Of a DNA stretch of 64,000 bases, positions 6,354 through 62,217 are shown in pieces. Position 1 is the stretch's first letter, and every line of letters starts with the position of its first letter. Source of the DNA: Styela clava (taxonomy: Eukaryota > Chordata > Ascidiacea > Stolidobranchia > Styelidae); NCBI RefSeq assembly GCF_964204865.1, contig NC_135255.1, positions 9,391,135 through 9,455,134 on the forward strand, in the 5' to 3' direction. The position numbers and the translations under genes were made by a program. The notes beneath the pieces are model-generated. The model made no database searches. It worked only from the letters and a program-made list of their open reading frames with translations, and was not told where the DNA came from.

Positions 6354-9300
6354 ATGGTGAGTTGCTTCTTCTGATTTGCAAATTGTATCCGTTGTAATCT
6401 ACTATTTTTCGCCAAATTAATAAGAGTTTAGTCATTTTAATTAATTTATTAAGTCATTTCTTGAAGTTGACATTATGAATTATACCCGGTAAGGCGATTT
6501 TTGCATGATAATCTGTCACCGAACGCAAGTTTTTCGATGTTTGTGGTCCTGTAAAACTTTTTGAAGTTAAAATACATAAAATTAAATAATGTCCGTAGAT
6601 GACAGACTACTGAAATGCGGTCTCGACCAGTCATCCAGTTGATGTTGGAAATTAAATTTCAAAAATTTCTCCTACATTTTTATTGAAATTGGAATAAGAT
6701 AATATTGTATTATAAATTCTTATATCATGCTTTCAGTCGCACAGAAAATTTTCTGCACCTCGTCACGGCTCCTTGGCATTTCTGCCACGTAAGCGTTGCC
6801 GCCATCATCGGGGAAAAGTTCGTTCATTCCCCAATGATGATCCATCAAAACCATGTCATCTGACTGCATTTGTAAGCTACAAGGCTGGAATGACCCATAT
6901 TGTGAGAGATGTTGATAGACCGGGATCAAGTGAGTGTTGCATTCATTGGTTTTTGATTTTGTTTATTACTAATGCAGTGGTTTTAGACCTATTCTGACAT
7001 CCTCCTTTAATTTGCCATTTGTATCACAATATGGCAAAGTTCTTAGACTCTGAAGAATAGCCCCACATTCTGACATTAAACGACTTTTCAATTATAAAAA
7101 GAAGTGCAAACCCCTTCTTTACATGACAGTCACCGTCTCCACATCGGCACTACATAATAAATAAAAAAGCAGTATGATCTAAAAACGTCACCATTCTGCC
7201 ATTGGATTTCTCTGAAAAAACTAGGCTGATTTACAGAGGGAAAAAATTTTACAGCAAAATTGAGTTTTCAGCAAGAATACATAATTTTGGTCCCAACTTA
7301 TGCCTTTTACAAATACATAGTATCTTATATATCTCGACGAAATTCTTCTTTTGGTGTAAAAAGCGCCACAATAGTGAGAGCTTGCTACTTTGTGGAAAGT
7401 CTGACAAAAGGCCAGAAGGCGTTCGGCGCTTGCAAACAAGTACCGTAATTGCTCCTACAGTCCTAGGCGTTTTAATGAATTTGTTTCTTCCTACTTGGGA
7501 AGTGTAAAATTGATATGAAGTCATATAGACTCCTGACTAGGGTATGTGCATATGAAGGCAAAGTTCATCAATTTTTATATAACGGATAACTCTTGCATTA
7601 TCTGGGTCATGCTATTAACGTTAATAGGTCTGTTAAATCTATGATGATATACAAGACGGGCGGACAGAATATCTGTGTTGAATGTCGTGTGTTCTGAGAA
7701 CTTCCAGCTAAAACAGCTTACAAACTCTTATGATTCTATATAAACAACTACCGGTACTTAGTGAAAAAAAAAACCTAAACGTACTGGTGTTGTTAGTTTT
7801 GAAAGAAAAAACGAAAGTTTGTTATTCCATTTTTTTCGGTCAGGGCTAGATTTCCAGCGTATTATCTAGAATTTTGATTTCAGAAATGAATAAAAAGGAG
7901 GTTGTTGAAGCTGTCACCATTCTTGAAACTCCACCTATGATTGTATTTGGAGTCACTGGATACATCATAACCCCTCGTGGTCTTCGTACTCTCACTACTG
8001 TCTTTGCCGAACATTTGAGTGATGAATGTAAACGTCGTTTCTACAAAAACTGGTGTGTATTTTTATAGAATTTTCAGAAATTTTTTTTCTCTGTTGCATG
8101 GATTAGGAATAGCCCAACTTAATTATAAAATTGGTCAGTCTTTTCTCCATAATACTGCATATATTATATTACCTGATGATTAAATAGTTATATATTTGCT
8201 ATAGTGCAAATGATGATTGTGCTATCTCTGACACCTCTTGTATTAGCGCTAAACAGTGCAATGAATTTGAGTGCACACTGTCTGATGCAGATTCTATTTT
8301 GGCCCTAATGCCCGCTAACTGGTGTATTAAATTTTTTTTTAGCTAACTGTAGATTAAGTATGATTAAGCTCTGTACTAATATATTTCATCAGCTCCAATC
8401 AGACTTCAGCTGGAAAGCGAGTACTGACGAGTGTCTCAATTGTGGCTTGTGCTTGACTGTATCCACTGTATGAATTCAAAACACCTCTGTATGTGGTGAC
8501 TTTGATCATCTTGTGGCTTCGTCAACATACTGCTGAGCTTATCTAGTCTCCTCTCAATTGCGTTTGTAATTGATGAGCCTAGTAAGCAAAATTTCCTGTT
8601 TTTCTTCCCACCACCTTCCCCCGTCCCAATCCAGGTATTCTTCCAAGAAGAAGGCATTTTCGAAAGCTTGTCGCAAATGGCAAGATGATGATGGTAAAAA
8701 ACAAATCGAGCAAGATTTTGCGAAAATGAAGAAGTACTGTACCGTTATCAGAGTACTCGCTCATTCTCAGGTAGGTATTTCTTGTTGATTCCTGGTGATG
8801 ATGTTGTAGGTATTTCTTCTCGTCTTGGCTTGGAAGTGGATTGAGCATTCTTAACTTCGGTGCCCCATATTCGTAAAAACCTAAGAAACTTCAATTCCAG
8901 TCGGTGCCTTCAGTTTGTTTTTGGTTCTTCTGAAACCTTTTTAAGTATATATAGGAATGGAAAACTGAACTAATGTCCTAGTTTTTTTTTATGTCAAATT
9001 TATCTGAAGACCACACCTAACCTTTTCAACGCCATATTGACCACTAACAATTGCATTTTGTGTAGTGCATTGACTATTTATTTACTGCTATGAAACAACC
9101 AGTATAAGTATCATCCCGTTTTTAGATGAAACTTCTGCCAATCAGACAGAAGAAATCTCACATTATGGAAATCCAAATTAATGGAGGATCAGTTGCAGAT
9201 AAAATTGACTTTGCTCGTAACCTTCTCGAGAAGCCAGTCAAAGTTTCTGACATCTTCGCACAAGATGAAATGATCGATATTATTGGAGTAACTAAGGGTC

Positions 9301-11244
9301 ATGGTTACAAAGGTGATAATGAGCTTTTTCGCTTTACAACAGTGGTTGCCGAGTTCATTTACTTTCTGTAAATACATGTATTTAATAATAAAAAGGTAGT
9401 TTTATATAATGTATGCACACATTTAGTTAATGCGATATCAGACCTTTCATTTGTGCAAATGGGAACCACTGCATTATGTCAGTTCTGGTCGCTTGTGTGC
9501 TGTTTGAGAATGATATAATTAGATAATTCCTGTGTGACAATGATGACACGCATTGGATTGCACCCCTGCCAGGGTGCCTGACTCTATTATGGAGATGTCA
9601 CCAATGCTGCCTTCCTACTGAGTTGCACTAGTTCTTACCATTGATTGTAAGACTTGGATGGCTTGAATTTAATCAAACTAGCCAAGTCCCTCTATGTCCA
9701 GTATATTATAAACTTTGGAATCCTTGTGTTTTAGGTGTTACTTCTAGATGGCATACCAAGAAATTACCACGTAAGACTCACAAAGGTCTGCGTAAAGTCG
9801 CCTGTATTGGAGCTTGGCATCCGGCCCGTGTCGCCTACTCTGTTGCTAGATCTGGTAAGCATACTGCGTGTGTAATCTAACGTAGACTTGAAAAGTTTAT
9901 TTATGTGGAGTTAACAACAGCGACGGCCTAGATAAATATGAAAGCCATAATTCAAAAGAATCTTATCTTCTGGATTTTGTGCATGTTTTTTTGTTCAAAA
10001 TCGAAACACCCTTATTATTATATGCGATTCAAGAGGCCTGTTGCGCACCAACGCAAGTATATTCCTGTAACGTTTCGTCTGACCAAAATCAGACTTCCTT
10101 AGACAAACAGTTTACAACAATGACAAGAAAAGAACAATCATGCAGTTTAAATACGAAGATACATAAAGTTGTTTGAAAATAATTGTGACGAAACAATGAA
10201 TAAAGAATAATTCTTATTTAGAAACAGATTGAGGCGGAAAAATATGATCGTTTCTCGTCATGGAATATCGTCATATTTAAACCGCATGATTGTTCTTTTT
10301 TTGTCATTGTTATAAACTGCTTGTCTGAGGAAGTCTGATTTTGGTGAGACGAAACGTTACGGGAATATACGCATACGGATCCACTAGCAAAAAGGCATTG
10401 AGAAAGGATGGGGAGTTAGTCTTGCGGCAACCTCTACTGGCCCTTTTTATTATTTGTACATTTGTGGTACAATAAATGGCCTTCAGAGTTAAAGCAGTTG
10501 ACTTGACTGTTTTGATGTTTGGTCCCATTTCCATGTCCACTGTGGGCACCCTTGACCTAGGATGTTATCAATTGGATAGGCAATTTTGAACTATGGAAAA
10601 TTTTGATCCTTCAGAAAAGCGGGGGATGCTTTTAGGGGGCTTTGTTCCGAGCGGGGGGCGTGAATAAGTGTAAAAATCATTTGAAGGGGGTTTTGTTCTG
10701 AGCGGGGGCATGAATAAGTGTAAAAATAGAGTTGAAATATCTAAAACCGGCATTTTTTTCAGGTCAAAAGGGTTACCACCACCGTACTGAGATAAACAAG
10801 AAGATCTATCGCATTGGTAAAGGAATTCACAAAGAAGGTGGAAAGATTATCAAGAACAATGCTTCCACTGAAGTTGATATTACAGATAAGAGCATCACTC
10901 CAATGGTGAGTACCCAAGACTTTAATACACCATGATGCCACCTCGTCGTCCACCCACTGCAGACTAACCTAATTGTTCTCAATTCACAGGGCGGATTTCC
11001 TCACTATGGTGAAGTGAAGAACGATTTCATCATGTTGAAGGGTTGTTGTATCGGACACAAGAAACGAGTTCTCACTTTGAGAAAATCTCTTCTCGTTCAC
11101 ACCAAGCGTGTCGCGCTCGAAAAAATCAAGCTCAAATGGATCGATACCTCGTCAAAGATGGGTCACGGTCGCTTCCAAACTCTGGAAGAGAAGAGAGCTT
11201 TCATGGGCCCACTCAAGAAAGACAGACAAGTTACTACTGCTTAA
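6354..11244 (+). CDS. RPL3: 60S ribosomal protein uL3 (L3), 8 exons
   Basis: uL3 of the cytosolic 60S subunit; it lines the approach to the peptidyl transferase centre. Coding exons: 6354-6356 (only the ATG), 6737-6929, 7884-8052, 8635-8770, 9126-9312, 9735-9854, 10763-10905 and 10990-11244. All junctions are GT-AG and phases agree, giving 401 residues (human L3 has 403). Recognisable blocks are [12 protein letters not shown] at the N-terminus, [20 protein letters not shown] including the GAWHPARV loop with the conserved His, [15 protein letters not shown], and the C-terminal FMGPLKKDR. The start follows the common ribosomal-protein layout with an intron straight after ATG. Introns carry snoRNAs (7636-7700, 8205-8289, 9534-9628), and intron 6 holds a large foldback. 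Expression is probably constitutive and TOP-regulated. The identification is secure. Confidence 0.98.
7636..7700 (+). ncRNA. SNORD43: C/D-box snoRNA, SNORD43 (U43)-like, RPL3 intron 2
   Basis: Box C ATGATGA lies at 7641-7647 and box D CTGA at 7694-7697. Between them GACGGGCGG (7655-7663) is followed by a degenerate D' box CAGA (7665-7668). The guide is exactly complementary to the universally conserved 18S segment CCGCCCGTC near the 3' end. The box-plus-five rule points to a C in that segment, matching the human SNORD43 target, which I recall as 18S Cm1703. Human SNORD43 is also hosted by RPL3. The terminal stem is weak, as I recall it is in the human RNA. Confidence 0.88.
8205..8289 (+). ncRNA. 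Candidate orphan C/D-box snoRNA, RPL3 intron 3
   Basis: Box C ATGATGA (8210-8216), D' CTGA (8228-8231), C'-like ATGAA (8261-8265 region) and box D CTGA (8282-8285) are in the right order and spacing. A TGCA/TGCA terminal stem at 8205-8208 and 8286-8289 closes directly on boxes C and D. The size of about 85 nt and the host are right for an intronic snoRNA. The guides upstream of D' (8217-8227) and D (8269-8281) do not match any rRNA segment I can recall, so the target is unknown. Confidence 0.72.
9534..9628 (+). ncRNA. SNORD83: C/D-box snoRNA, SNORD83 (U83)-like, RPL3 intron 5
   Basis: Box C is TGATGA (9541-9546) and box D is CTGA (9618-9621), closed by a terminal stem in which GTG-CAA pairs with TTGCAC with one bulged A. 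An internal D' CTGA lies at 9578-9581 after a hairpin CACCC...GGGTG. The 11-nt guide GCTGCCTTCCT (9606-9616), one nt before box D, is perfectly complementary to conserved 18S AGGAAGGCAGC. The fifth nucleotide upstream of D (T9613) pairs with an A, matching the known SNORD83 target, 18S Am468. SNORD83A/B are hosted by RPL3 in human, so the host is conserved as well. Confidence 0.92.
10050..10375. repeat. Large imperfect foldback in RPL3 intron 6
   Basis: The arm at about 10050-10165 is the reverse complement of about 10262-10375 at roughly 90% by eye. Shared blocks include CAAAATCAGACTTCCT and AGAACAATCATGC. The loop is about 95 nt. Transcribed within the RPL3 pre-mRNA it would form a long hairpin. 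It is probably a foldback MITE, but I see no clear target duplication. Confidence 0.8.
10630..10732 (+). repeat. Short tandem duplication in RPL3 intron 6
   Basis: Two adjacent units of about 50 bp share TTTTGTTC(C/T)GAGCGGGGG and GTGAATAAGTGTAAAAAT. They are separated only by a few substitutions and one G-run length change. They lie about 30 bp before the acceptor of exon 7. Confidence 0.7.
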
Positions 11245-17092: not shown

Positions 17093-20000
17093 TTATAGTT
17101 GGTATGTGAATTCAATATCAGAATCGGCAAATTCAGCTTTCAAAACTTTGTCCATTTGTTCTGATTGTGCAACGCTGAATTTATTTTTCCATTTTCCCAC
17201 TCCACCTAAAAAAAATAAGAATATTCAAACATAGATTTACACGTGAAAATTAACGTTTTCCCGAAGAAGAAAAGAGGAAATTGAAAATAATTTTGAATCA
17301 ATAAGTTGCTACGCTCTTACATCATTTGGGTTGATTTTGCATACAGTATTGCAACTCATACAGCATACCTGGATTGGAAAACAATTTTTTCATCATTTCG
17401 CCATCTGTAATTGGCTAGATATCGATTATTTATATCACAAAACATTATAGTAAAATATATATAGTATTGCCCCTTTTTCGTCTTTGTATCAATGTGAAAA
17501 GTGATCATTGTGCAAAAAATTTATCTTCAAAATTAATTAAGATATAAGAATGTGCAATGTTCAACTGAAAGAGAACATATTTCGGACCTCCTAAAGTATG
17601 CGCACCAAGATGGCGCACAACCTGAACTCAGGTTGTGTACCGGGTTAGGGTTCAGGTTGTGCGACATCCTGGTGCGTATACTTCAGGACAGGAGTACCCA
17701 TATTTCCTTAAAATATTTTCAAATTCTTTCTGAGAATTTCAATGTACTAGTGAATAGAAATTTTCAATTAACTGTTAATGTTTTGGTCATTATTATTTTC
17801 AGTTATTCACCTTTATTAACAAGTATATTGGCTTCATATCTTCCGGACTTTCCCGCTGCATCTTTCATACTTCCGATTGAAGTGTTTTCGGCAATGATAG
17901 CTATTTCTTTGTCCGTTAGGTCGACTTCTAGGAAGTTCGCAATGCGTCGAATTTCTTTTTCTATATCCTGTGAGTATATACCAATCAGAGATTTAGCGTA
18001 GTTATATGGGCGTTTAGAGATATTTAGGATCAAAGGTCAATAGATGCAACAATAATCTTGATGGTCTTCAAAATTTGGATGACTAACTAGAAAAACAATG
18101 ATTTACTGTTTAACTGTAGAAAGTATGATTTAATTGCATTTTGTCACCGCGAAGAACGAAATATTATATAAACACCACGTAAAGTCAGTCAAGATCGAGG
18201 TGAAAGCAAAATACTGTTTGAGTTTTATAAATAAAAGATGTATATTATAATAAAAATCTATTTCGCACTTTAATCATATCTTCGTACACAAGCAATAAAA
18301 CGTCTTTGTCATTTCTGTGCTTATACCATCCCTTCACATGATCTGGAAATGACCATTCATCGTCTTTCGAAACAAGGCCATGTTTTCCTGCAATAATTTT
18401 ATCATTTTTAATGCCTTGAACCCAATAGTAGAATCGAGAAAACCTGAGAATTTAAAAAATAAAAAAGCATTGCTTAAAATTATGAACACTAATAAGGTCA
18501 CCATAACGTCAGCTAAATATCAACCCAATGTTAAAAAGAATTGTACCGTCATATGAAGATGTGTCTGTTAAATATAGTAAAGCAAATTAAAAAAAAAACA
18601 TAACTGATAGATAAGCCCTTTGATGAGTAGTAACAAATTCTGACATTTTGTCTTCAAATGCTAAACATTTGTTGTGGAGTTGAATGATAATACTACTAAC
18701 AATATGGCACGATATTATTGCAAAAAGTAGAAAGCATAAGTTAAATGTGGGTGGTTACCGGGGATACCTTCGAACTGAATGCTAACAACATGTGCTAAGC
18801 CCCACTGTATTTTGTTGATTCATAAACTTGATAATCTAATAGGGAATGAGTTCAACTGAAATTTCTTCAATTGAAATATCTGGAGGAGTGAGTTTCCACA
18901 TGCGTGTTTGACGAGTAAACAGCAATATGTGTTTAGCCCCCCTTTATTTTGTTGATTGGCAACTTGACAACCTACAAGGGAGTGAATCCAACAACTGAAT
19001 CTTTTTCAATTGAAATATCTGAGGAGTAAGTCCACACCCGCGCGACCTATATAGTATTTCATTGTCCTATTTGATGTATATGTAGGAATACCCCATATCT
19101 GACTCTTTCATAGTTCAATATAACAGACAGTAGATTCATTCCAGTGCTTCTAGTGTAAACAACAAAAACGGCTGGACATCAATATCACCAAACAAAACCG
19201 ACCTTGTAAAAAGTCATTGAAAAAATCATCCCACGATTCTTTGAAAAGTTGTTTTCTAACGTTTTCGTTGAGCAATATTTCATGAACAAATTTATACCAT
19301 GATACCAATTGATCTTTCGGGTTTCTCACAACGTATATCACCTGTACGCAATATTTAAGATCATAAACTTCAAATCTTATTTTCCGATATATCTAGGGAT
19401 TTGTCAAATCAGTGAGTGGAAAATACAGACAATAATATGTTTACAAAGGCCACTCGTACTAAAACCAGCAATGGTTGGGGTTTATCGTTCTTCTTTATAG
19501 TATACGATGCTGGCGAATTCAAACAATCTATATATATATATTTAATAACACCTATAGTTGAAACAGAGTCACCGTGTATAACGGACGCCGCGAATACATC
19601 GGCGTTAAGGTTATCTGTTTAGTATATGTTGCATATATACAAACTTACATGTTTCAAAACAAGAAATATATTAATTGTAGTTCCTATATTTTTTTACAAA
19701 TTTGGACGAAAATGTTTTACACCTACCTTTCCATTCACTTTTCTCAATTTTTCAAAGTCAAAAAGTTCTTCTCTTAAGTGTGTATTAAAATATTTTCTTG
19801 GCAGTGGTATTCGATCAATGACATCAAACTTCTTTTCCGCTGAAACATTGTATAACTTTAATGTAAGATAATCAATCATTCAATCTTTGCTTGTTTTTTA
19901 AGTTGATTGTAAAATCGAGTGCGAGAGATCATGACAGCACATCGTCATATCATCATTACAACGTGCATGTACATGAAACGAAATGTCTAATCTTTTTTAT

Positions 20001-22215: not shown

Positions 22216-22893
22216 AACGTCGCACTCACACGAAAAAATGCTGCTTTCAAATAAAACTCAATTTTGTGATCGTTAATATGTACTTACTAAAGTTTATAAA
22301 CATGTAGGTCTATGGAATAAAGGCAAAAGGTCAACTTTTACACCTCATTGACTATACCTCGGCACTTTGCAGACTTCCATTTCAACCTTTGAATATTTTA
22401 CGACGAGATCGCAAACAAATAGGGCAGTGTTCGAGATACACTGTTTGCCGATATTGCAGACTTGTACGGCTTACTTTGCACTAATTCTTACCGTGGTTTG
22501 TTTGCACTTATGTAAGAAGCAACCGTAGCGCAGAATTATAGTTGAGATAGCTGCATGAATGGGCGCACCGCTTTTCAATATATCGAGAAGATTAATAGTA
22601 TTTTAGAAGTTGATTTTGTTATCTAGAATTTAAACAAAGAAAGGAACAATTCCAAATATATATATTAGTTTCTATTCTGTGATTACCAACTAATTGTATA
22701 ACCTCTTCCTTTGGTCCTACTTAGTTAAGGCTGGGTCAGGATACGTTAGCAAGTAAAGTACAACATAAGAAAAACTGAGAAATACGGAAAAATTACAGAA
22801 TAGTTATTCCTACTTTTATTTTAGCGACATAATACTACAGTGACTACCAAATATTTTAGTAAAACTACATGTTTTAATAATTCTAACGTACAA

Positions 22894-24138
22894 ATGACTG
22901 GTGGTAAAAGCACTCGCCGTAGGAAGAAGATATCGCATACAAATGTGGTAAATGAGTTGAGTAAACCCAACAGTCCACTTCTGAATGGACATCCAATTAA
23001 TGCGTGCAAAACCATAATCTTTGTTGTTATTCTCGCTTTCATCACACTGGGTTTATACCTTACGTGGTTGTATATCAACTCTCCAATATCGGCTGTTCCT
23101 GTTGATGACATCAAAGTAGTACCGCAATTGTCAACTTGGTTAAACGGAGAAAATACTTTGCTGCAGAATGGAATAAGGTTTTTACCGGAACTAGAAGCAC
23201 CAGAATCGATTGCGACAGATCAAGAAGGGAAATTGTATGCAGGACTTGCAGATGGGAGGATTGTAAAAATATCTGATGACGACAACGGCAATCGAGAGAT
23301 AATTGATTTAACTGAGGGATTCGATTTTGCAGAGAATAGTGAACGTCAAGGAAAACGCCCCCACGGTCTGCGTATAGTGAATTCAACATTGTATTTTGCT
23401 GACGCTGTCCAAGGTGTATTTCAAATAGATTTGAAGACCAGGAAATGGGGTAAAGTGGTCGCTTATAATGATATTAATCCCCATATAAACTACGCAAATG
23501 ATCTGACAATTACCGCGGACGGAACAACAATGTATTTCACTGATATTAGTAAACGGTGGAGTTACACCGACATACAGAAATCGATACTAGAAATGGAGTG
23601 CAGTGGCCGGGTTTTAGAAGTTGATTTAACAACGAATAGCATCACCAAAGTCGTTTTTGAGGGACTGTGTGTTCCAAACGGTATTGAACTGGATCATACA
23701 GAATCCAAGTTGCTTGTTTCAGAAAATAGTCGACGAAGAATAACAGTTATTGACCGAAAGTATGGCAAGATTACGAAGCATGTCCATCTTCCAGGCGGAA
23801 CGGACAATATACGGCGCAGTCATAATGGAGGATATTGGGCACCGGTTCCCTTTTTATCGAGACCTATTTTTGATTTTATTCTGCGTTTTCCAACAATCCG
23901 AAACATATTAGCGAGCATTCTAGACCTCGAGGGGCTTTTAAGTCTACTGGAATGTAATGTGGGCGTTGTCATAAAACTAGATGATAATTTCGAACCTGTT
24001 TATGTATATTACGATATTGAGGGCAAGGTTGCCAGATTCGTTACGCAGGTAACGGAACTCAATAATGGAGACTTGGTCCTTGGTTCGTATTTGGCAAATG
24101 GAATCGTCAAACTCGACAGAAAGTTCATCAATGGGTAA
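22894..24138 (+). CDS. APMAP-like / strictosidine synthase-like membrane protein 1
   Basis: Predicted adipocyte plasma membrane-associated protein (APMAP) family member of 414 residues, close to human APMAP (416). A basic cytosolic N-terminus (KSTRRRKK) precedes one membrane segment at about 41-61, giving a type II anchor. The rest fits the six-bladed strictosidine-synthase beta-propeller facing the ER lumen or cell exterior. Diagnostic blocks are APESIATDQEGKLYAGLADG, ANDLTITADGTTMYFTD, VPNGIELD..LLVSENSRRR and LPGGTDNIRRS.GGYWAP. Human APMAP shows arylesterase activity; the substrate here is unknown. The whole gene is one exon, unlike vertebrate APMAP. ATG 22894 is the first usable in-frame start; the longer frame opens with GTG. 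A TTTATTTTAG acceptor-like site just upstream could mark a 5' UTR intron or trans-splice site. Confidence 0.93.
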   Translation: MTGGKSTRRRKKISHTNVVNELSKPNSPLLNGHPINACKTIIFVVILAFITLGLYLTWLYINSPISAVPVDDIKVVPQLSTWLNGENTLLQNGIRFLPELEAPESIATDQEGKLYAGLADGRIVKISDDDNGNREIIDLTEGFDFAENSERQGKRPHGLRIVNSTLYFADAVQGVFQIDLKTRKWGKVVAYNDINPHINYANDLTITADGTTMYFTDISKRWSYTDIQKSILEMECSGRVLEVDLTTNSITKVVFEGLCVPNGIELDHTESKLLVSENSRRRITVIDRKYGKITKHVHLPGGTDNIRRSHNGGYWAPVPFLSRPIFDFILRFPTIRNILASILDLEGLLSLLECNVGVVIKLDDNFEPVYVYYDIEGKVARFVTQVTELNNGDLVLGSYLANGIVKLDRKFING

Positions 24139-28114: not shown

Positions 28115-28770
28115 GTTAGCAGTCAGGCAGCATCTTACCTGTACACTGTAGGCCATATACGGTAATTGATCACAGAACAGTTGTTCCCTTGCAAATTTTA
28201 TGTTGTTTACACTTTAGGACAGATAATTGATCACAGAACAATTCTTCCCTTTCAAATTTTATGTTGTTTCCAGTAGACTCTCATCAAAATAAACAAATAT
28301 AGTAGGCTACAAGTGCTACAACGCTTGCATTACTGCACTGGTAGGACCGTGAAAGAATAAGTTACGGTAATTTCATTGTGGTAAGACACCGGTACCGGCA
28401 CCAGTACCAGTATCGTACTTACGTACTGAGCTACCAGTACCGGTTAGCAGTCAGCCAGCATCTTACCTGTACACTGTAGGCCATATACGGTAATTGATCA
28501 CAGAACAGTTGTTCCCTTGCAAATTTTATGTTGTTTACACTTTAGGACAGATAATTGATCACAGAACAATTCTTCCCTTTCAAATTTTATGTTGTTTCCA
28601 GTAGACTCTCATCAAAATAAACAAATATAGTAGGCTACAAGTGCTACAACGCTTGCATTACTGCACTGGTAGAACCGTGAAAGAATAAGTTACGGTAATT
28701 TCCTTGTGGTAAGACACCGGTACCGGCACCAGTACCAGTAGCGTACTTACGTACTGAGCTACCAGTACCG
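28115..28770 (+). repeat. Recent 328-bp tandem duplication
   Basis: Unit 28115-28442 is repeated from 28443 with only about four substitutions by eye, for example CAGTCAGGCAG versus CAGTCAGCCAG. Each unit carries two internal copies of ATTGATCACAGAACA followed by TTTTATGTTGTTT. Each ends in a GGTACCGG/CCAGTACC-rich block that is itself palindromic. The low divergence indicates a recent event or gene conversion. Confidence 0.9.
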
Positions 28771-29235: not shown

Positions 29236-30574
29236 AAACCATGGCGATGAATATGTATTTTGATTTACTAATATACCTTAAATATTTTTACTAAGTAAGT
29301 ACTAAATCAAGTTGTATTTTTATAGCAGATAGTAGGATTTTTCTAACGGCGATAACAAATTCGCAAGATCGCAAAAACTAAGTATAATTGGACAATATAT
29401 CCACATTATTAGATTCACAGATTGCCATTGTATTTTAGAGAAGTAATGCTTTCATCTTGTCGTAATTCGACGCAACCGCGAATTATCATGAACACAATTA
29501 AGTTAAAATAGGAATACATCTTAAATTCTCGTCGTTGTCATGGATTGAATATTGTGCGACAGAAAAGGCCATTGTTGAAATTCGTTAAAATTCTGTTGTG
29601 TTCGATTTTATTGCCTGTTCACACGGTTGCAATAAACGCACCTTGAGTCCGCAAAGGGTTTCACAGGTGAAAAAATAGTCCGCGATCAAAAAAGGTTGGG
29701 AAACGCTGTACTAGAAGAAGAAGGTATAACTCGCTGTTGCAGACATTGCAGCATATAGATACCAAGGTATATATAGATCTGTTGTATGCGGATATCTATG
29801 GAACCTACGACCACGATAGCGGGATTGCAAGCCAAAAAATTCACCAAAGTCAATTTGTTGACCTATTATCCGCAATTCGGCCGCAGCATATCGGCATATA
29901 ATAGTTACGTCGCTCGTCTTTCGGTGATTAGCGTTAAATTCGCGTATTTAAATTTTTTTTATTTTTGTGTCTGGGTCACATTTTTAACCGAGGAAATATA
30001 ATTATATCATGTTTCAAGATATTTAATCCATAAAACTCCCACAAAGTCGTGCATACAAATTTTAACGGCATGTGAGTGATAATATATATATTCGAGTTTC
30101 GTCTCGGAATCAAGACGAAAATTGGCCGTGATCTGCGGTATGATTATGACGTAAAAATAATAATTGAGCAGCCGTATTGGGCCCTTCTCATTACTGCAAT
30201 ATAAAATCATACACCCAATGTTCCGAATAACGGCACCGATAGCGCATGACAATGACGTAATGTTACATTGGGAGTTGGTCTGCAGAAATCGCTTAGTTAC
30301 TATCACAGTGACTATAACGTCACCGCTAACGCTTGTTGTGGAGTGGGGCTGGGGGAGTGGTCTATGTGTGTTCTTCAGCTCTTAACAACATTTTTAGCGA
30401 TAATACGAATGGACATAATTTAAACTGGATTTTGGATTAATACGGGTAAATGTACCTGAATTGTTTATTATTTGTCATTATTTATCTATGTAGCCTATTG
30501 TATACCGTACTTAAAAGCCCCAATTAAATGTATTCCAGTATCAGAGTATTCAGGTATTGGAAATGCAGCAATGA

Positions 30575-30907
30575 AGGATAGGATAGGATTTACATATTTA
30601 TCCCGGGGGAGAGGAAAGTCAATAAGACGGCTTATCCATATGGCGAACCACGGCCTCTCGTCCGGTTACCATTCCAAGTCGGGTATGGGATTAGTTATAT
30701 TGTTTGTTTTTGGAAGCATGGACTTGGTGGTGGAGGAAGCCGTGACCGACCAGCGGTTACGTGAACCACCCAACGACGACGAGGAGTTCAGCAATCCTCT
30801 CGCACATAACCATCCCTGCATGGGATGCGAACCCACGCAGAGTAATTAGAGGTGCGGTGGCGAGCGTATTCCTAACGCTTAGCCCGTTGAGCCACACCGT
30901 CGCGCCC
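30575..30907 (-). mobile_element. tRNA-derived SINE, minus orientation
   Basis: Reverse complement of the SINE at 52274-52613 along almost its whole length. It starts with the tRNA-like head at about 30907 and runs to a GGATAGGATAGG-complement tail near 30576. The B-box region at 30823-30833 reads GGTTCGCATCC because of an 8-nt deletion relative to the other copy. The pol III promoter is therefore probably impaired. Confidence 0.85.
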
Positions 30908-52266: not shown

Positions 52267-52620
52267 CTTGTGCGCGGCGGTGTGGCTCAACGGGCTAAGC
52301 GTTAGGAATACGCTCGCCACCGCACCTCTAACTACTCTGCGTGGGTTCGCAGGTTCGAATCCCATACAGGGATGGTTATGTGCGAGAGGATTGCTGGACT
52401 CCTCGCCGTCGTTGGGTGGTTCACGTAACCGCTGGTCGGTTACGGCTTCCTCCACCACCAAGTCCATGCTTCCGAAAACAAACAATACAGTAAATCTAAT
52501 CCCAAACCCGACTTGGAATGGTAACCGGACGAGAGGCCGTGGTTCGCCATATGGATAAGCCGTCTTATCGGCTTTCCTCTCCCCCGGGATAAATATGTAA
52601 ATCCTATCCTATCCTTGTGC
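52267..52620 (+). mobile_element. Complete tRNA-derived SINE
   Basis: A 340-bp element (52274-52613) with A box TGGCTCAACGGG (52283-52294) and B box GGTTCGAATCC (52352-52362), so internal pol III promoters look intact. The 3' end is an A/T-rich segment with ATCCTATCCTATCC repeats. A 7-bp duplication, CTTGTGC, flanks it (52267-52273, 52614-52620). The long spacing between boxes suggests a Ser/Leu-type tRNA ancestor. Other copies lie at 26255-26450 and 30575-30907. Confidence 0.9.
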
Positions 52621-52960: not shown

Positions 52961-53300
52961 CCAATCTTGCGTATATTTGTCAGCGTCAGATACAGAGGTC
53001 GGTGCCCGTTACGCTTTGTTGCTCAGATCAAATTTCGCAGAAACACTGCGGCATAACAGCGCTGTATTAATGTCTTCCGTGACGATCTATCTAGTCATCG
53101 TGCTATGTAGTTTTTCCTTATTCGCCTCAACTGTTTACCTGATTGAGTATATTGTCAATATATATGGCAAACATTGTGGGGGTTTCACTCACCCTATGTT
53201 GATGAATTTTATTTTTGAGGTATAAATAGCCAGTTGGTTGGGATAGCATTAAAGCTTAAATATACAAAGTTAAATTTAACCAAGTGCCAAGTATTTTAAT

Positions 53301-54506
53301 ATGGATAATCGAAAAGAATTGAGACAGCGCAGCAAAACATCAAAGAAAGATACTCCACACAAACGGACAGGCGATGAAAACGCATTGCAAGGCTCAACTT
53401 CAAGAAACACCATTACCTTCGTGGTGAAGGTGGTGATAGCTGCTCTAAGTGCATATCTGTGCTGCGCGTATTTCACATCCCCGACTTCTTCCGTCGTCGT
53501 CAATGACATGCATAATATTGGGCAATTGAAATGGGCAAATATGATAAACAACGATCTTCAGAATGGGGAAAAGCTGTTTACCGAGTTAATTGGGCCAGAA
53601 TCCATTGCAGTTGATAAAGTTGGTAACTGGTACGCTGGCCTCGAAGATGGTCGAATCATGAAAATCTCAAATTCTGGCAAGGTACTTACCGAATTGACCA
53701 AATCATTCGACTTTGCGAAAGGAAGTAAGCGTGTGGATAAACGTATTATGGGTTTAAGATTGTTTAATTCGAAACTCTTTTTCGCGGATGCATACCAAGG
53801 TATTTTTGTTATCGATATACACACAAAAGAATGGAAGAAAATTGTAGGATTCGGTGATGTCAACCCCAACCTGATGTTTGCTAATGATTTGACAATAACT
53901 GCAGATGGGTCAACGATATATTTTACCGATACTAGTGAGAAATGGGATTACAAAGGGGCTGCGTATAGCATAATAGAAGTAGAATGCAGTGGACGATTGT
54001 TCAAAGTAGATCTAACCACTAAAAGTGTCGATCTTCTCCGTGAGCGTTTGTGCTTTGCAAATGGAATTGAATTGGATTTGACAGAATCGAAGTTGCTGTT
54101 GTCAGAAAATAGTCGACGCCGTATTCTTGTATTTGATATAAAATCAGGCGAAATCTTGAAACAGATTCTGCTTCCTGGTGGGCCAGATAACATCAGAAGA
54201 AGCAGAGATGGAGGATTTTGGGCACCGATTCCAGTTTTACCCGACCCGAGTTTCGATATCGCCTTACCATTTCCAGTTATCCGTGACACTTTAACCGGTG
54301 CTATTAGCTTAGAAACTCTATTTAAACTTCTTAAAATGAATAAAGGCGTTGTGGTGAAAATTTCGTCAACGTTTGAGCCTGAAGCCATACACTATGATCT
54401 CGACGGGAAAGTTTGTCAAGCCATCAGCCACGTGTGTGAACTCGATACTGGAGAACTTCTACTGGGAACCGTCACCTCCCGCGGAATCGTTAGGCTGAAG
54501 TTATAG
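53301..54506 (+). CDS. APMAP-like / strictosidine synthase-like membrane protein 2
   Basis: Paralogue of 22894-24138, 401 residues in one exon. A basic N-terminus (RQRSKTSKKD...KRTG) is followed by one membrane segment at about 38-58, then the beta-propeller. Matching blocks are GPESIAVDKVGNWYAGLEDG, ANDLTITADGSTIYFTD, FANGIELDLTESKLLLSENS, LPGGPDNIRRSRDGGFWAP and a C-terminal GTVTSRGIVRL. The two copies align end to end with few gaps, but differ clearly in the N-terminal tail and propeller loops. The same intronless layout suggests descent from one retrocopy followed by duplication. No AATAAA occurs close after the stop; the first good one is near 54877. Its function is inferred from family only. 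Confidence 0.93.
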   Translation: MDNRKELRQRSKTSKKDTPHKRTGDENALQGSTSRNTITFVVKVVIAALSAYLCCAYFTSPTSSVVVNDMHNIGQLKWANMINNDLQNGEKLFTELIGPESIAVDKVGNWYAGLEDGRIMKISNSGKVLTELTKSFDFAKGSKRVDKRIMGLRLFNSKLFFADAYQGIFVIDIHTKEWKKIVGFGDVNPNLMFANDLTITADGSTIYFTDTSEKWDYKGAAYSIIEVECSGRLFKVDLTTKSVDLLRERLCFANGIELDLTESKLLLSENSRRRILVFDIKSGEILKQILLPGGPDNIRRSRDGGFWAPIPVLPDPSFDIALPFPVIRDTLTGAISLETLFKLLKMNKGVVVKISSTFEPEAIHYDLDGKVCQAISHVCELDTGELLLGTVTSRGIVRLKL

Positions 54507-62117: not shown

Positions 62118-62217
62118 TTCGGACCTCCAGAAGTATGTGGGCTAAGATGGCGCACAACCTGAACATAGTAGTTGTACCAGGCTGAGCGCCCCTTAGTGTA
62201 CATACTTCGGGAGCGCC
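62118..62217. repeat. Diverged copy of the palindromic MITE
   Basis: It shares AAGATGGCGCACAACCTGAA with the left arm at 17589-17627 and has partly complementary outer arms (AGAAGTATGT near 62128 and ACATACTTCGGGAG near 62200). It is less symmetrical than the 17585 copy. Confidence 0.65.

Follow-up and report, generated by a model that had tools for sequence, protein, structure and literature searches.

Human SNORD83A and SNORD83B are located in introns 5 and 7 of RPL3 (PMC3412847), and human U43 also maps to an intron of this gene (PMC3068486). In mouse, one region has been annotated to Rpl3 and Snord83b together (PMC12996923). The chicken snoRNA table lists a gene, chr1_11.94 (unnamed there), whose introns 3 and 6 carry U43 and whose intron 8 carries a U83 copy; the gene hosts no further C/D family of that table, and the second chicken U83 copy lies in LOC771432 (PMC2653536). 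Yeast snR52 and plant snoR52Y appear in the same table as functional homologues of the chicken U83 relative (PMC2653536); by numbering, they share its target position. The address in RPL3 is not universal in animals, since the SNORD83-like snoRNA of sponges, a member of the same family, resides in RPP0, which is also a ribosomal-protein gene (PMC3412847). SNORD83 has already been inferred for an ascidian clade and was reported lost in Didemnum vexillum (PMC5006418). More generally, a survey of 44 genomes argues for ongoing snoRNA mobility; it examined 22 introns that bear snoRNAs and date back to the eukaryote ancestor, and in none of them were the snoRNAs homologous (PMC3511168).

A comparable element was found in Styela clava at positions 9532–9628 (+ strand) of the window, i.e. 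the whole stretch of 64,000 nt that was analysed. It has the boxes, the guide, the guide-box D spacing and the RPL3 host of human SNORD83A and SNORD83B (RF00593). One copy was found here, whereas human RPL3 has two. When the whole window was searched with cmscan, RF00593 (snoU83B) was the sole Rfam match at or above the gathering score. The match covered model positions 1–94 of 94 with 39.8 bits (gathering score 35) and an E-value of 4.8e-5 for the 64-kb window and 4227 families, exceeding the cut-off by just 4.8 bits. The original prediction had assigned the element to SNORD83 from the letters alone and had proposed an Infernal search with the Rfam model as a check, which it passed. The model RF01179 (snoU83), which has the same guide and box D spacing, scored 21.1 bits on 9532–9628, under its gathering score of 50.

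The element has a box C of the form RUGAUGA, a CUGA box D and a closing terminal stem, as box C/D snoRNAs do. It was present at the place originally predicted, and its boxes C (ATGATGA, 9540–9546), D' (CTGA, 9578–9581) and D (CTGA, 9618–9621) were all exact. The terminal stem had been described as bulged. This was ruled out, as a continuous stem of 7 bp, two of them G-U pairs, fits between 9532–9538 and 9622–9628. The unit accordingly ends at 9628, as predicted, and starts at 9532 instead of 9534. At the 5' end, the stem is followed by one A and then by box C, a layout also seen in the printed RF00593 consensus. Compared with that consensus, five of the seven stem pairs were changed on both sides with the pairing kept. 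A possible inner stem of 7 bp (9550–9556 with 9601–9607) was weak; at the like place, the RF00593 consensus has 6 bp and the RF01179 consensus 4 bp. Shuffled arms reached it in 258 of 5000 cases, compared with 818 and 3169 of 5000 for the two consensus lines.

Chance occurrence of this architecture was rare. Across both strands of the 64 kb there was a single case of an exact box C combined with CTGA and six or more stem pairs, against a mean of 0.015 per shuffle in shuffled DNA. The version with 7 pairs was absent from all 200 shuffles. Likewise, the pattern TGATGA-N50-80-CTGCCTTCCTNCTGA had a single occurrence in the window and none in 100 shuffles. The SNORD83-like pattern matched twice in viral contigs, in neither case with a snoRNA at the gathering score. 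The fold of the whole molecule was unremarkable (z −1.77; 8 of 200 shuffles folded equally well), which is usual for C/D snoRNAs.

Directly before box D', GCACCC (9560–9565) pairs with GGGTGC (9572–9577), forming a hairpin of 6 bp (9560–9577). The RF00593 consensus has a hairpin, GCGCUG/CAGCGC, in the same position adjoining its CCGA, with a loop of 4 bases compared to 6 here. With pair 1 at the base, both bases had changed in pairs 3, 5 and 6, and pairs 1, 2 and 4 were the same. Among 20,000 shuffles of the segment, 306 gave a 6-bp hairpin adjoining D', as did 28 of 5000 stretches taken from shuffled intron. The comparison was made with the printed consensus line and not with individual members, and the hairpin is absent from the Rfam structure line. 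Nothing comparable is seen in the RF01179 consensus, where the best candidate has five weak pairs. Because it rests on a consensus line and the other consensus does not share it, the hairpin is suggestive only, although outside the guide it is the best sign of common descent. No good complement for a second guide at D' (9558–9577) was found among 18S and partial 28S sequences; the best had 11 pairs, three of them G-U (28S model positions of about 1484–2710 of 3401 and the chicken 28S-C-3190 site lay outside this test). Most likely, the snoRNA would act as a single-guide RNA with the hairpin filling its D' side. The chicken U83 relative has a D'-side element of 11 nt for 28S-C-3190 (PMC2653536), which would count against single-guide action as a trait of the whole SNORD83 family.

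The guide GCTGCCTTCCT occupies 9606–9616 and is separated from box D by one spacer base, A9617, which is U in RF00593. The motif CUGCCUUCCU, which together with its position one base before box D marks members of RF00593, was thus present in its proper place. The original prediction had noted a perfect 18S complement of 11 nt. The perfect complementarity stood, and its length was corrected to 12 nt (9605–9616, complementary to AGGAAGGCAGCA). Eukaryotic 18S sequences were obtained with a pattern downstream of the site, which yielded 11 contigs from bacterial records. These eleven records (L003–L013) contain eukaryotic 18S contigs as contamination, and four matches to group I introns occur in the contig of L005. 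Rfam called SSU_rRNA_eukarya in all 10 contigs submitted (L006 was not among them). The 12-mer AGGAAGGCAGCA was present in 9 of the 11 18S stretches, all from eukaryotes other than S. clava. L006 and L008 were two bases and one base off, respectively, and both kept the target A. In three of four SSU sequences examined, the exception being L008, 9605–9616 paired over 12 nt without G-U. A search of viral contigs with 18S patterns gave no match. In the pairing test, scores of up to 12.0, G-U pairs included, were also reached by chance elsewhere in the three snoRNA candidates described here, so that pairing length alone is no proof, and it is position and register that carry the argument.

T9613, the fifth base upstream of box D, faces an A; this is A420 in the 1800-nt 18S of L012, which we take to be the site of yeast snR52. 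The corresponding human 18S sites are presumably C462, A468 and A484. Each of these numbers is 39 above a site in the chicken table, namely C423 of U14, A429 of the U83 relative (listed with snR52 and snoR52Y as having a 13-nt D-side element for 18S-A-429) and A445 of U16 (PMC2653536). The registers therefore agree and, by numbering, denote the same A, which supports the predicted box+5 register on human A468. If expressed, the snoRNA would be spliced out with its host intron, trimmed to about the terminal stem and assembled on boxes C and D with the fibrillarin complex. The proteins that bind stable box C/D snoRNAs are fibrillarin, NOP56, NOP58 and 15.5K. Segment 9605–9616 would then pair with 18S rRNA, and the A opposite T9613 would be 2'-O-methylated.

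The host gene, RPL3, extends on the + strand from a start codon at 6354–6356, after which intron 1 begins at 6357, to 11244, the last base of its stop codon. The gene is intact, with 8 exons and seven GT...AG introns. The product of 401 aa aligned with solved uL3 proteins across nearly its whole length, and the human uL3 chain was identical to it at 311 of 396 aligned positions. Its best match (312 identical residues) was Rpl3-prov, presumably a frog protein, which has 369 residues in common with the human chain. Both the exon map and the uL3 matches bore out the proposed host intron, intron 5 (9313–9734; GT...AG, phase 1, codon 230). The snoRNA lies in it on the same strand as the gene, with 106 nt to the 3' splice site. 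An RPL3 intron in sense orientation is the usual SNORD83 host in human and mouse, and not in sponges. Among 26 pattern matches in viral contigs, no RPL3 relative was confirmed.

Intron 6 of RPL3 contains an inverted repeat at 10057–10370 (105 nt, 91% complementary), likely a hairpin-type mobile element. A sub-threshold MIR869 match at 10077–10350 fell inside this repeat and was judged an artefact. Several further features were observed elsewhere in the window. Inverted copies of a repeat of approximately 340 nt (30574–30905 and 52272–52616) were 91–98% alike in three blocks and had open frames with similar peptides. Two direct copies of 300 nt at 28115–28742, 99% identical and 328 nt apart from start to start, indicated a recent tandem duplication. 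Long intronless open frames at 22825–24138 and 53280–54506, whose stop-to-stop lengths are 437 and 408 aa, would encode proteins similar to each other, which we take to resemble APMAP/strictosidine-synthase-like proteins. At 17590–17687, sub-threshold mir-559 matches occurred on both strands, as a near-palindrome would give, and 17581–17644 has an 80% alike copy at 62118–62181. No tRNA was found by ARAGORN.

Two other snoRNA candidates were detected in RPL3 by an Rfam search of the gene region with lax limits, with E-values calculated over the whole window. They are called "-like" only, since neither reached its Rfam cut-off. In intron 2, a SNORD43-like match at 7637–7700 (+ strand; RF00221, 33.9 bits, gathering score 45, E = 0.0016) keeps GACGGGCGGACAGAA, the best-kept stretch of RF00221, and retains GACGGGCGG; it has no terminal stem acceptable to the box scan. 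It has a 9-nt complement, CCGCCCGTC, in 18S, which was not distinctive alone in the pairing test; ACACCGCCCGTC was present in four of the 11 contigs, and several of the rest were truncated or gave no match to the motif. The match in intron 3, at 8206–8288 (+ strand; RF00345, snoR1, 28.2 bits, gathering score 49, E = 0.091), was SNORD60/snR48-like, these two snoRNAs being of the same kind. It keeps UCUGACACCUCUUGUAU, the best-kept stretch of RF00345, and has exact boxes C and D and a stem of 4 bp. When all seven introns were scanned for boxes (at most one mismatch in box C, at least 4 stem pairs), only the elements of introns 3 and 5 were recovered.

The intron 5 element is very improbably a dead copy or a chance resemblance. 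All its boxes are exact, its stem is intact despite changes on both sides, it lies in sense orientation in a ribosomal-protein gene, and both the Rfam E-value and the shuffles gave low chance rates. Somewhat less remote, though still quite unlikely, is a SNORD83 relative whose main work is other than methylation of 18S A468, that is, an orphan or non-canonical snoRNA. This would agree with a list in which the target of SNORD83 is given as unknown (PMC3349704), as it is in the sponge paper (PMC3412847), and with a listing of SNORD83 as non-canonical and without target (PMC12288042). Against such a role, the guide and its spacing from box D belong to the best-preserved letters across the window and both Rfam consensus lines, and the A at box D+5 is, by numbering, the one given to the U83 relative in the chicken table (PMC2653536). 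The original prediction had called A468 the SNORD83 site. The chicken assignment agrees with this, but because the other sources give SNORD83 no target, methylation of the A468 equivalent by SNORD83 is a prediction here. A literature search returned no paper joining SNORD83 with 18S and A468 or Am468; term searches of the main texts of PMC13228274, PMC8797249 and PMC8522698 found nothing on the 18S A468 site, and PMC5932544 gave nothing on SNORD83. We have high confidence that the element at 9532–9628 is intronic and belongs to the SNORD83 family of box C/D snoRNAs, with a predicted 18S target and RPL3 as its host. Although well supported, it is an unexceptional member of a known family, probably with an old address.

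How the family came to reside in RPL3 is a separate matter. The original prediction held that guide and host gene had remained linked ever since the ancestor they share with vertebrates. We consider inheritance of this place from such an ancestor probable. A SNORD43-like neighbour in RPL3, where SNORD43 also lies in human, strengthened the claim. Alternatively, a true SNORD83 may have gained its RPL3 residence separately from vertebrates, with snoRNAs moving between ribosomal-protein introns and RPL3 having been entered twice. The sponge SNORD83 in RPP0 (PMC3412847) and the mobility argued for by the 44-genome survey (PMC3511168) fit this explanation. The intron 3 element also fits it, since chicken U60, a relative of SNORD60/snR48, is tabled in a different host (PMC2653536), so that the set of the ascidian gene differs from the vertebrate one. 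We nevertheless regard separate entry as rather unlikely, as SNORD83 and SNORD43, the latter sub-threshold here, share RPL3 both in S. clava and in human. A random draw of three families from the 93 chicken C/D snoRNAs would include both members of the two-family gene with a probability of 7.0e-4, a rough and optimistic figure given that hosts are not random, that the matches to two of the three families fall below threshold here and that chr1_11.94 is unnamed in the table. The number "intron 5", common to this locus and human SNORD83A, is no proof that the introns are the same.

Common inheritance could be extended to a fuller reading, in which SNORD43 and SNORD83 already resided in RPL3 as an ancient pair before the vertebrate split, SNORD83 sat in the same phase 1 intron at codon 230, and the D' hairpin is an unannotated conserved part of SNORD83 that replaces a second guide here. 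We offer this combination tentatively, and judge it somewhat more likely to fail than to hold as a whole; the D'-side element of the chicken U83 relative makes it less likely.

The preservation of the D' hairpin via paired changes suggests that the RF00593 structure could be extended. An extended structure might help to find diverged SNORD83 genes, e.g. the one reported missing in Didemnum vexillum. The S. clava locus adds a probable invertebrate case in which snoRNA family and host gene agree with human, probably for a second family, SNORD43, as well. If the pair has indeed stayed put in RPL3, it would be a useful counter-case to the mobility of snoRNAs between hosts described in the 44-genome survey (PMC3511168).
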